From contig JAIMBT010000008.1 in NCBI GenBank assembly GCA_023511295.1, positions 1-64,000 of the forward strand: a stretch of DNA of 64,000 bases, read 5' to 3'. The stretch is from Alicyclobacillus sp. (lineage in GTDB: Bacteria; Bacillota; Bacilli; Alicyclobacillales; Alicyclobacillaceae). Shown here piece after piece: positions 22,356 through 26,352 of this stretch. The notes under the pieces were generated by a model. The model ran no database searches and had not been told where the DNA came from. It was given only the letters and a program-made list of their open reading frames with translations. The position numbers and the translations under genes were made by a program. Position 1 is the first letter of the stretch; each line of letters starts with the position of its first letter.

Positions 22356-23663
22356 GTGGCTGTAGACAGCAATTCCGGCCGCGCGTGGGTCCAGTCGCTA
22401 TCTCGGTTCGGGATTCGCCCCGGGTTGGAGCGGACCGAGCGAGTGCTCGAGGCGCTGGGAAACCCCCACCGCGGTCTGCGGTTCTACCACGTAGCCGGTA
22501 CGAACGGAAAAGGCAGCGTGTGCGCGTTTCTGTCCGAGATCTTGGGGGCTTTGCAGCGAACCGGCGTGTTCACGTCGCCGTCGTTCGACGGCTACCGCGG
22601 GCGCATGCGCGTCGACGGTTCGAACATCCGTCCCGAAGATTTCGAGCGCCTCGCGTGCCGCGTGCGGGACGCGGCGCTCACTGTGACACCGGAGGATATG
22701 GTCACAGAGTTTGAGGCGTTGACCTGCATCGCGTGCATGTACTTCGCGGAGCAACAGGTCGACGCTGTGGTTTGGGAGACGGGCCTTGGCGGACGGTACG
22801 ACTCGACGAACGTCGTCCACCCCGTGGTCGCGGCCATCACCAACGTCGGTCTCGACCACACCGAGATCTTAGGACCCACCGTGCGGCATATCGCGCGAGA
22901 TAAGTCCGGGATCATCAAATCCGGGGCGGACGCGGTGACGGCAGCGGAGGGCGAGGCGCTGCAGGTGATTCAGGCGGCCGCCTTGGCTGCCGGGACCACC
23001 TGCCACGTGTACGGAGTCCACTTTCAGGTGGTGCGGCGCGTGACCAACGCGTCGGTTGTCGTCGACTACCGCGGACTGGAGCACGATTGGTATGCACTCC
23101 CCTGTACCCTCTTCGGAGCGCATCAGGCGAAAAACCTGGCCGTCGCGCTGGCGATGTACGAATGTGGCCTGCGCGCGGGTGTGGCAGTTCCGTTGACGGA
23201 CGTGCAGCTGCGCGCAGCGCTTCGCAAGGTGGCATGGCCGGGTCGGTTTGAAATCGGTTCGTTCCGCGGACGGCCCATGGTGCTCGACGGCGCACATAAC
23301 CCGGACGGAGCTCACAGTCTCGTCGCGGCGTTAGCTGAGTTCGGCCGCTTGCGGCGCCTGGACGGCGTCTTGTGGACGCTTGTCGTGGGCATCTTGGGTG
23401 ACAAAGACGTCGATACCATCTTGCGAACGGTGCTCCCAGTGGCGCGTCGTGTCGTGGTCACGGCCCCGGACAATGGCCGAGCGCTGCCTGTGGGTGAACT
23501 CGCGCAACGCATCCGGGCCATTGATCCGACGCTGCCCGTGATGGAGCAACCGCGTATCGTGGAGGCACTGGCGTGTGCGAGTGCGTTTGATGATCCGATC
23601 TGCTGCATGGGTTCCCTGTATACCGTCCACGAAGCGAGGGAAGCTATGGACGTTGGCGGTTGA
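22356..23663 (+). CDS. folC: Folylpolyglutamate synthase / dihydrofolate synthase
   Basis: It adds glutamate to dihydropteroate and folates in the cytosol. The 435-residue product has the Mur-ligase-type P-loop GTNGKGS at 48-54, the GLDHTEILG block near 168 and DKSGIIKSG near 184. The domain linker contains LDGAHNPDG near residue 310, the FolC C-terminal signature. The GTG at 22356 follows GGGGAGGAG. murC starts 67 bases downstream on the same strand, so co-transcription is likely. Confidence 0.96.
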   Translation: MAVDSNSGRAWVQSLSRFGIRPGLERTERVLEALGNPHRGLRFYHVAGTNGKGSVCAFLSEILGALQRTGVFTSPSFDGYRGRMRVDGSNIRPEDFERLACRVRDAALTVTPEDMVTEFEALTCIACMYFAEQQVDAVVWETGLGGRYDSTNVVHPVVAAITNVGLDHTEILGPTVRHIARDKSGIIKSGADAVTAAEGEALQVIQAAALAAGTTCHVYGVHFQVVRRVTNASVVVDYRGLEHDWYALPCTLFGAHQAKNLAVALAMYECGLRAGVAVPLTDVQLRAALRKVAWPGRFEIGSFRGRPMVLDGAHNPDGAHSLVAALAEFGRLRRLDGVLWTLVVGILGDKDVDTILRTVLPVARRVVVTAPDNGRALPVGELAQRIRAIDPTLPVMEQPRIVEALACASAFDDPICCMGSLYTVHEAREAMDVGG

Positions 23664-23730
23664 GGACAGGCTCCGTGGGTCGCGCAGGCGACGGGTTGCA
23701 CATGGAGCCGCGAATACGGAGACGAGGACG

Positions 23731-25137
23731 GTGAAGCGCGTGAGTCGCTCGCAGCATGTTCACTTTGTCGGGATTGGCGGTTACGGGATGAGCGCAATCG
23801 CACGGGTGATGTTGGACCTGGGGTACGAGGTCAGTGGGTCGGACGTTTCCGCTCAAGAATTGACACAGCGCCTTCAGAACTTGGGCGCGACGGTCTACCA
23901 CGGTCATGCCCCGCATCAAGTGGACGGCGCCGATATCGTGGTGTACAGTACCGCCTTACCGCAGGACAACGTTGAACTGGCGGCCGCCCGATCTAAGGAC
24001 ATCCCCGTCATCCACCGTTCGGAAATGTTGGCCCGCCTGATGGAAGGCCGAATCGGGGTTGCCGTCACGGGCGCACACGGTAAAACCACCACCACGTCGA
24101 TGATCTCCTACGTCCTCGACCGCTGCGGGCTGGAGCCGACGTTTGTGGTCGGTGGGGTGGTCAGCAACATCGGCGACAACGCCAAGGCTGGGCGGGGCCA
24201 GTACGTGGTCGCTGAGGCCGACGAGAGCGACGGGTCGTTCTTGCATTATCGGCCCCAGATTGCCGTTGTAACGAATATCGAGGCAGATCACCTGGAGCAC
24301 TATGGCGGTGACTTCGAGAACCTGAAGGCTGCGTACCGGACGTTCGTTCAACAGATTCCCGAAGATGGTTTGCTGGTCGCGTCGGCTGCCGACCCGCACC
24401 TCGGAGATCTGTTGCCGGATGCACACTGTCACGTGGTGACCTTTGCCATCGACGAGCCTGCAACCGTGACCGCAACCGCGGTCCGACTGGAAGACCGCGG
24501 CAGCACCTGCGACGTGTACGCCCGCGGCGAACGGCTCGGCCGTTTGCAACTGGCCGTGCCCGGACGCCACAACATCCTCAACGCTCTGGCGGCGATTGCG
24601 GTTTGCCAGGCGGCGGGTCTGGACTTTGCGGATATCTGTGCTGCGCTGGCGGAGTTTCACGGGGCGAAACGGCGGTTCCAGGTCATCTCAGAAACGGCCG
24701 ACGTCGCTGTTGTCGACGACTACGCCCATCATCCCACCGAGATCAGCGCCACCATCGAAGCGGCCCGGGCGACGGGTCGACGGATTGTGGCTGTGTTTCA
24801 ACCCCAGCGGTACACGCGCACGTTCTTCCTATTCGACGCGTTCGCGCAAGCGTTTCGCGGTGCGGATGAGGTTGTCATTCTCGATATTTACTCCCCCGCA
24901 GGCGAACAGCGGATTGAAGGTGTCTCGGCGGAGCGGCTCGTGGAAGCCATTCGCGCGCGCAGCAACCCGAACGTTCGCTTCCTCGCCACGAAGGATGACG
25001 CGTTTCATTACCTGGAGCAGACAGTTTCTGCCGGTGACTTGGTGCTGACGATGGGTGCCGGCGACGTGTGGAAGGTTGCCGTGCGGCTCGCGGAGGCACT
25101 CGGCCAGCGGGAAGCGCAGAAGGCGAGTCTCGCCTGA
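23731..25137 (+). CDS. murC: UDP-N-acetylmuramate--L-alanine ligase
   Basis: It attaches L-alanine to UDP-MurNAc, the first peptide step in peptidoglycan precursor synthesis. The 468-residue product has the N-terminal nucleotide motif HFVGIGGYGMS, the ATP loop GAHGKTTT near 112-119, the EADESDGSF block, and the C-terminal DDYAHHPTEI signature. Start codon is ambiguous between GTG 23731 and GTG 23740. I chose 23731 because GGAG at 23718-23721 is well placed. A strong bidirectional hairpin follows. Confidence 0.96.
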   Translation: MKRVSRSQHVHFVGIGGYGMSAIARVMLDLGYEVSGSDVSAQELTQRLQNLGATVYHGHAPHQVDGADIVVYSTALPQDNVELAAARSKDIPVIHRSEMLARLMEGRIGVAVTGAHGKTTTTSMISYVLDRCGLEPTFVVGGVVSNIGDNAKAGRGQYVVAEADESDGSFLHYRPQIAVVTNIEADHLEHYGGDFENLKAAYRTFVQQIPEDGLLVASAADPHLGDLLPDAHCHVVTFAIDEPATVTATAVRLEDRGSTCDVYARGERLGRLQLAVPGRHNILNALAAIAVCQAAGLDFADICAALAEFHGAKRRFQVISETADVAVVDDYAHHPTEISATIEAARATGRRIVAVFQPQRYTRTFFLFDAFAQAFRGADEVVILDIYSPAGEQRIEGVSAERLVEAIRARSNPNVRFLATKDDAFHYLEQTVSAGDLVLTMGAGDVWKVAVRLAEALGQREAQKASLA

Positions 25138-25161
25138 TGGGGTGGCGAGCGTCTCATAGAT

Positions 25162-25198
25162 AAAACAGGCGATGGGAAGCCCATCGCCTGTTTTCCTT
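25162..25198. terminator. Bidirectional terminator between murC and a convergent small gene
   Basis: A perfect 15-bp stem (25162-25176 with 25180-25194) with loop AAG starts with AAAA and ends with TTTTCCTT, so it can terminate on both strands. It serves murC on the plus strand and the 58-residue gene on the minus strand. Confidence 0.9.
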
Positions 25199-25206
25199 AC
25201 GGTTTA

Positions 25207-25383
25207 CTATCGCTGGGGCCTGCCGTGGCGGGATTGCACCGCTCTCGTGAAGAAGTAGTAAGCGACGGACAGCAAGGCGAGCACCGCCGCAATCTTCAAC
25301 GCGATGCTGAGAAAGACCACGAGGACCACCAGGGCAATCACGGCGATGACGGTCAGGACTCCAGTCCGAATCCACAGATTCAC
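25207..25383 (-). CDS. Small membrane protein, unknown
   Basis: A minus-strand frame encodes 58 residues from a GTG complementing 25381-25383, with AAAGGGGTG upstream at good spacing. The product has a hydrophobic stretch from about residue 8 to 46 (one long or two close helices) and a basic tail ending in SRHGRPQR. No family is recognised. A candidate extended -10 lies at 25542-25550 and the shared terminator at 25162-25198 ends the unit, so it has a complete small transcription unit of its own. Confidence 0.65.
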   Translation of the reverse strand: MNLWIRTGVLTVIAVIALVVLVVFLSIALKIAAVLALLSVAYYFFTRAVQSRHGRPQR

Positions 25384-25541
25384 GTCGACACCCCTTTCGC
25401 GGTTCCCAACCCGGTTTCCGGCAGACTCCGCTCAGATGATCTCGTTGGGCAATGTGCCATCCCGACGTTCGCAACCGCCGTTGGCACCGGCGTCCACCTA
25501 CCCGCCGATTTTCCGCGGTGTTGGGACAAGCGTCCGCTCCC

Positions 25542-25550
25542 ATTGTAACA
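25542..25550 (-). promoter_or_regulatory. Extended -10 promoter for the 58-residue membrane protein gene
   Basis: On the minus strand the segment reads TGTTACAAT, an extended -10 match. The leader to the GTG would be about 150 bases. No good -35 is present at 17 bases. Confidence 0.45.
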
Positions 25551-25695
25551 CGAACCCGCCCGTCCGGAGGAATCGCGTCGACCGTTGTCGAACAGAGGTG
25601 TGGATGGAACTGCTGAACGGTCCGCAGCACGGTGCATCGACCGGTTTCGCCGACCTGGCGCTACGGCGGTCGGCAGCGCGGGGAGGCTTCTCGGA

Positions 25696-26352
25696 ATGCG
25701 TGCAATCGGCGCCTGGGTGTGGTTGTTCGGCCTCATCGGCTTTGGAGTCGGTGGCCTGGCAGCTTGGTTGGGGAAGCGTCTGTCCGATGGGGATGGACGG
25801 ACCGACAGCCGCGGGTTGTGGTGCGTGCCCCTCATCAGTGCAGCTCTGTTCGGCGCGACGGTGCTCCGCGTTCAGGCGCTGGTACAGCTGTGTCCGTGGC
25901 TTACGCTGTGGTTTTTGCTGCTCGTTGTGACCGTTACGGATATCCGGTCGATGCGCGTGCCGAATCTCTGCACGTATGCGGGGGCCGGATGCTTGCTCCT
26001 GGCCACGGGGTGCTGCCACCTGCATTCATGGGTCGGCGCGCTGACGGGCGCGGGGACTGCAGCCGTGGTGATGGTGGGGCTCCACGTTTTGTCACGAGGA
26101 CAGCTTGGCATGGGGGACGTGAAACTGTTCGTCAGTGTGGGGACGGTCCTCGGGCCGGTCGGGGCGATGGCCGCCTTGTTTTTCGCCTCCGTAAGCGGTG
26201 CGGTCACAGGTTTGGCGCTGCGATGGATGGGCTTGCAGCGCCGCATGGAACCCATGCCATTCGTTCCGCATATCGCCGTGGGGAGCGTGATCGTCGCATT
26301 CTTCGGCCCCGCGCTGGCAGACTGGTATGTGGTTCATTGGCTGCCCAGGTAA
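25696..26352 (+). CDS. comC: Type IV prepilin peptidase (A24 family), ComC-like
   Basis: It cleaves the leader of type IV prepilins at the membrane and would serve the ComG pseudopilins encoded at 42-44 kb. The 218-residue product is shorter than B. subtilis ComC (248). It keeps both catalytic aspartates, Asp82 in VTDIRSMRVPN and Asp141 in GMGDVK, in a multi-helix membrane protein. The N-terminal methylase-type cytosolic domain is reduced and no CxxC pair is evident. The ATG at 25696 follows GGGGAGG. comC sits near folC and spoIIB in B. subtilis, which fits. Confidence 0.9.
   Translation: MRAIGAWVWLFGLIGFGVGGLAAWLGKRLSDGDGRTDSRGLWCVPLISAALFGATVLRVQALVQLCPWLTLWFLLLVVTVTDIRSMRVPNLCTYAGAGCLLLATGCCHLHSWVGALTGAGTAAVVMVGLHVLSRGQLGMGDVKLFVSVGTVLGPVGAMAALFFASVSGAVTGLALRWMGLQRRMEPMPFVPHIAVGSVIVAFFGPALADWYVVHWLPR

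Follow-up and report, generated by a model that had tools for sequence, protein, structure and literature searches.

The 64,000-nt window, the whole stretch of Alicyclobacillus sp. DNA analysed here (GCA_023511295.1, contig JAIMBT010000008.1, positions 1 to 64,000), carries a 58-residue minus-strand frame in the gap between two larger plus-strand genes (Table 1). The frame converges on one of these, which we take to be murC, the name it received in a sequence-only reading of the locus, and diverges from the other, the prepilin peptidase gene comC. That reading had proposed that the gap holds a whole small gene; the frame, its position and the type of its promoter turn out to be kept in relatives, the hairpin less strictly. 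The frame is present as described, with a GTG start, and the claimed ribosome-binding site stands: AAAGGGGTG lies ahead of the GTG with 5 bases between, and, by eye, G-rich sites precede the start codons of most relatives' small genes. Because the homologue search that had been suggested finds the frame in relatives too, and because its dN/dS stays far under 1, the observation goes beyond chance, and sequence comparison confirms a genuine gene and a protein-coding family.

Table 1. Features in and around the gap between murC and comC.
Feature	Position	Strand	Basis
Convergent neighbour, presumably murC	23662..25137	plus	65-77% identity to relatives' murC frames (one partial piece 82%)
Shared intrinsic terminator working in both directions (perfect 15-bp stem around a 3-nt loop)	25162..25194	both	Inverted repeat, folding; relatives' hairpins
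Small membrane protein gene (predicted), 58 aa, GTG start, TAG stop	25207..25383	minus	ORF, homologues, synteny, dN/dS
Ribosome-binding site AAAGGGGTG	25389..25397	minus	Upstream string; relatives' G-rich sites by eye
GGACGCTTGTCC, in the place of relatives' GGACAAG box, orientation inverted	25524..25535	read on minus	Motif counts
Extended -10 TGTTACAAT, probable promoter, no -35	25542..25550	minus	Such an element in 25/32 loci, window included
Weak sigma-H-type promoter toward comC: GGAGGAATC, 12 nt, GTCGAACAG	25566..25595	plus	12/15 positions
Divergent neighbour, prepilin peptidase, comC	25696..26352	plus	Pfam Peptidase_A24, E 1.1e-13

At the downstream end, the proposed 15-bp terminator common with murC is borne out: its arms (25162-25176 and 25180-25194) form a perfect repeat around a 3-nt loop and fold at -25.9 kcal/mol on the minus and -25.0 kcal/mol on the plus strand (z -7.2 and -6.7), an energy that none of 200 shuffles equalled. 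The hairpin starts 24 nt past the murC stop and 12 nt past that of the small gene and can thus serve both; the tail of the stem holds 4 T only. Across the loci compared, 67-438 nt separate the two stops, and the best stem came ahead of all 30 mononucleotide shuffles in 16/31 gaps and not in 15, a comparison that takes one best stem per gap and misses bulged ones; such hairpins are thus frequent without being universal. A generic scan of 24900-25900 returned one terminator-like site, no more than shuffles (mean 0.9). Three sub-threshold Rfam matches, of which two cover the hairpin and the third lies at 25125-25158, fall far below the gathering scores and were set aside.

The gene is widespread in its order. 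In a set made up of the window's own genome and 60 relatives, a single-protein query matched 31/61 genomes at E<=0.1, with a second weak match (E 0.046) in G012, while a 15-row profile matched 42/59 genomes of the order at E<=0.01, once in each: 32/41 in the window's family and 10/18 in a sister family. All nine genomes of the window's family that lack a match belong to one genus, g5, in which 6/15 genomes have the gene; the gene is thus dispensable there. The first profile drew its rows from 24/28 loci, and the row sets A1 to A4 comprised 15, 8, 40/42 and 16 rows, near-duplicates and loci with uncertain starts being left out. A pattern-limited search found a family member in at least 10 genome contig records, including two MAGs; the named carriers are A. 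herbarius, mengziensis, tolerans, contaminans, kakegawensis, shizuokensis, ferrooxydans and pomorum. Across a sample of the class, 18/299 genomes matched at 1e-4, 17 of them within the order; the one outside, G147 (E 1.6e-5, or 2e-9 in a small set), appears to be the one convincing relative beyond the order. This distant relative (L110, 2986-3210 minus), from another family of the class, is divergent from what looks by eye like a tryptophanyl-tRNA synthetase frame. Besides the window's own genome, a sample of the phylum searched with another profile gave three weak matches out of 299, and one further search outside the order added three more weak ones. Of 19 pairs compared, 16 have a finite dS and give dN/dS values of 0.06-0.32, and the other three are saturated in dS; by this measure the small gene is under purifying selection.

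What kind of protein is being maintained? It consists of about 38 hydrophobic residues interrupted mid-way by a Lys/Arg at residue 30, and of an Arg-rich tail, and it shares with its relatives a core of the form K-x-A...L-x-A-x-A-Y-Y-x-x-x-R-A. Over 42 members, A32 is kept in 40/42, Y43 in 38/42, A48 in 36/42 and K/R30 in 40/42; the two exceptions have Glu at that place (L014 and L017). Leaving the start codon position aside, the columns that stand out most are A32, Y43, A39 (where the window protein has Ser), A48, Y42, L37, K/R30, A41 and R/K47, and the C-terminal half is the more conserved, with a mean information of 2.89 bits over residues 30-47 vs 2.25 bits over residues 8-29. Over the same 42 members conservation lacks a helical-face periodicity (p 0.55-0.91), so that a helix packing on one side is unsupported. 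AlphaFold, given 40 rows, returns one helix from residue 2 to 52 (mean pLDDT 89.8, pTM 0.51); a straight helix of 51 residues exceeds one membrane span and may be an artefact of single-chain modelling. Both ends of the protein tend to be basic, and therefore a single long helix and a hairpin with both ends inside are both possible. The window protein scores 7-14 bits against Pfam and NCBIfam models with cut-offs of 25 bits or more, a sequence search of the PDB gives no significant match (best E 9.4), and Pfam over 15 members reaches a best E of 0.0034 among the best 25 of 41 families. Three of these families, PF10112, PF20990 and PF17260 (best E 0.036, 0.22 and 0.0034 among the best 25/41), share hydrophobic helix segments with the small protein; their similarity was judged to be one of composition only, and the window protein has no match to them at the gathering score. 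A well-supported small-protein family has thus been missed by the domain libraries searched; the open-licence literature yielded no paper on the gene, and literature outside that licence may hold one.

The promoter-like sequence that had been reported upstream survives in part. Since a generic scan of 24900-25900 finds no two-hexamer sigma-70 promoter, what remains is an extended -10 for which no -35 can be recognised. Its counterparts are abundant: the loose form TGNTAYRMT occurs within 250 nt upstream of 25/32 small genes of the window's family (0.47 expected by shuffling) and the strict form TGNTATAMT in 20/32 (0.05 expected), the window having only the loose one. The same upstream regions contain GGACAAG in 14/32 loci (0.57 expected), often just downstream of the -10, TTCGAC-N13-15-TCC in 20/32 (0.12 expected) and TGTCGAA or TTCGACA in 18/32 (1.37 expected), counts that are not independent, as the loci are related; the reverse form TTGTCC stays at 3/32 (1.98 expected). 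For the ten loci of the sister family the tally is 1 for TGNTAYRMT, 0 for TGNTATAMT and 1 for GGACAAG (expected 0.16, 0.02 and 0.21), 1 for TTCGAC-N13-15-TCC, 0 for TGTCGAA/TTCGACA and 3 for TTGTCC (expected 0.07, 0.31 and 1.00), and 4 for the shorter GGACAA (0.76 expected). GGACAAG(CTT) follows the extended -10 closely in L006, L025, L059 and others; the window has it inverted.

A second promoter, beyond those features of the gap that had been described before, faces the other way. It is of the sigma-H type, diverges from the small gene and is strong in many relatives, whereas the window's copy is weak. Sigma-H elements are spaced by 11-12 nt. Read on the opposite strand, TTCGAC...TCC fits RNAGGAWWW and RNNGAATWW, the sigma-H promoter elements as PMC8510167 gives them. 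A score of at least 12/15 pointing away from the small gene is reached in 23/32 loci, where 5.55 are expected and the opposite strand gives 6, of at least 13 in 15/32 (1.12 expected; 0 on the other strand), of at least 14 in 9/32 (0.10 expected) and of 15 in 4/32 (0.00 expected), with 0 on the other strand for both of the last. The window's copy is weak because it scores 12/15, which shuffling reaches in 5.55/32. A Spo0A box, the first thought for TTCGACA/TGTCGAA, was set aside when TTCGAC-N13-15-TCC proved readable as a reverse-strand sigma-H promoter; a role of Spo0A at these sites may still exist. The sigma-H-type elements point at comC in 21/28 loci (tblastn) or at pilT/pilB-like frames (L017, L021, L025, L026) and thus predict sigma-H control of comC and type IV pilus genes in the relatives; in Lactobacillus sakei, sigma-H is reported to activate competence genes (PMC3364868).

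How fixed is this neighbourhood? In 28 of 30 loci searched with tblastn the small gene converges on murC, and in the remaining two, both of the sister family, neither gene was found. With L057, L059 and L073 added to the 28, the tail-to-tail arrangement that had been claimed for the window is found in 31/32 loci of its family; the last, L060, has no murC match in the sequence examined next to the small gene and, by eye, a glutamate decarboxylase-like neighbour, which suggests an insertion or rearrangement. In L011 (4-1382) the murC match is split over two frames (two tblastn pieces), to all appearances through a frameshift or sequencing error. On the divergent side stands comC in 21/28 tblastn loci having the small gene, and also in L060; the pilB/pilT-like frames of the four loci named above were recognised by eye. 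Synteny points to vertical descent. In the sister family, where part of the neighbourhoods was covered, the small gene was not found at murC; since it sits elsewhere there, the murC neighbourhood does not seem to be essential to it. In L105, a locus of that family, the genes around it encode aconitase, an SCP2 protein, an NAD-binding protein of the siroheme type and a D-alanyl-D-alanine carboxypeptidase (Pfam was applied to L105 and, in L100 and L106, to a single gene per locus; the other sister loci were judged by eye). An SCP2 locus as the ancestral place in the first family was rejected, as 9/14 genomes have SCP2 relatives and none has a family member there (best E 2.2).

What might the protein do? 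The small regulatory membrane proteins KdpF, CydX, AcrZ, MgtS and SpoVM offer a template. The window's gene, with its observed frame, conservation, promoter and terminator sequence and with a membrane location suggested by hydrophobicity, is like theirs a conserved short membrane protein gene: fewer than 70 residues, a hydrophobic helix, a chromosomal location and purifying selection. The likeness is one of general features, and unlike these proteins the present one has a mid-helix Lys/Arg, an Arg tail and about 38 hydrophobic residues. We tentatively propose, at a little under an even chance, that it is a small accessory or regulatory subunit of a larger membrane complex, with its own promoter and a shared terminator. 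Transcription would start from the extended -10, probably a sigma-A promoter, and end at the hairpin common to murC; the product would be a small integral membrane protein with one predicted helix, its topology surmised, and would bind a larger membrane complex in its accessory or regulatory capacity.

Which complex, and in which programme? The divergent genes suggest a protein that assists the type IV pilus/competence machinery (comC, pilB/pilT-like), with the intergenic region coordinating both sides. The comC and pilus-like frames opposite the small gene, the sigma-H-type promoter that points at them and the missing comC of gene-less g5 genomes (below) favour it; nevertheless it is unlikely, as the small gene is kept in L014, L018, L022 and L073, where the divergent 1.1-1.5 kb are not pilus-like, several sister-family loci have comC/pilus-like genes after murC and the small gene elsewhere, and the promoter of the small gene itself belongs to a different type. 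Less likely again is a membrane protein of sporulation whose expression SpoIIID would time by way of GGACAAG, which we take to resemble the SpoIIID box. The excess of the box in the upstream regions and its place just downstream of the -10 fit this idea, as does a mild genome-wide excess of TATACT-N5-26-GGACAAG summed over 23 genomes from the window's family (53, compared with 30 for the reversed control), an excess nearly gone over all 37 genomes (72 vs 62). Against it, the window carries the box inverted, a form that shows no enrichment, and the -10 does not resemble the sigma-E/K consensus. The SpoIIID consensus appears as a logo in PMC517825, and its letters were not found in the literature text; GGACAAG may mark a regulon.

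Adjacency to murC in nearly all loci of the family, and the D-alanyl-D-alanine carboxypeptidase of L105, would suit a protein acting with MurC or in lipid-II metabolism, yet the small gene is convergent to murC and not co-transcribed with it, the linkage does not hold for sister-family loci or for L060, and syntenic stability by itself accounts for it; we regard such a wall-linked role as improbable. Type I toxins are usually small and hydrophobic, according to PMC6563280. Could the small protein, which is short and hydrophobic, be such a toxin, silenced by an antisense RNA? In TxpA/RatA of B. subtilis, a type I toxin-antitoxin pair with an antisense RNA, TxpA resembles it in size, hydrophobicity, basic C-terminus and convergent layout. 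Unlike TxpA-type toxins, it is kept through two families of an order in one match per genome and at a fixed position, repeated or mobile occurrence being typical, although not strict, for such systems; an antisense element of the extended -10 type, the only type sought, is present in the frame plus 70 nt in 0/32 loci; plasmids gave no relative of the one relative's protein used as query, viral contigs gave 13 pattern matches and no relative; and the gene is under purifying selection. The toxin is accordingly disfavoured and thought very improbable. The most doubtful of these proposals would be an order-specific family of membrane micro-proteins that links wall synthesis with the sigma-H competence/pilus programme and gates a wall or pilus complex in the membrane; its head-to-head sigma-A/sigma-H promoter pair would make small-protein and pilus expression mutually dependent.

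The nine gene-less genomes of g5, which count against the proposed subunit of a membrane complex, are natural knock-outs. At the 7/9 loci covered, murC is followed by sequence matching the 3D-domain protein of the window, and comC and the small gene are both not found within about 1.5 kb after murC; the gene-less g5 loci L071, L072 and L074-L078, devoid of a comC match in this interval, are candidates for a joint deletion of the two genes. With gene-less genomes and a clear promoter element at hand, the function of the small gene is directly testable in Alicyclobacillus relatives.
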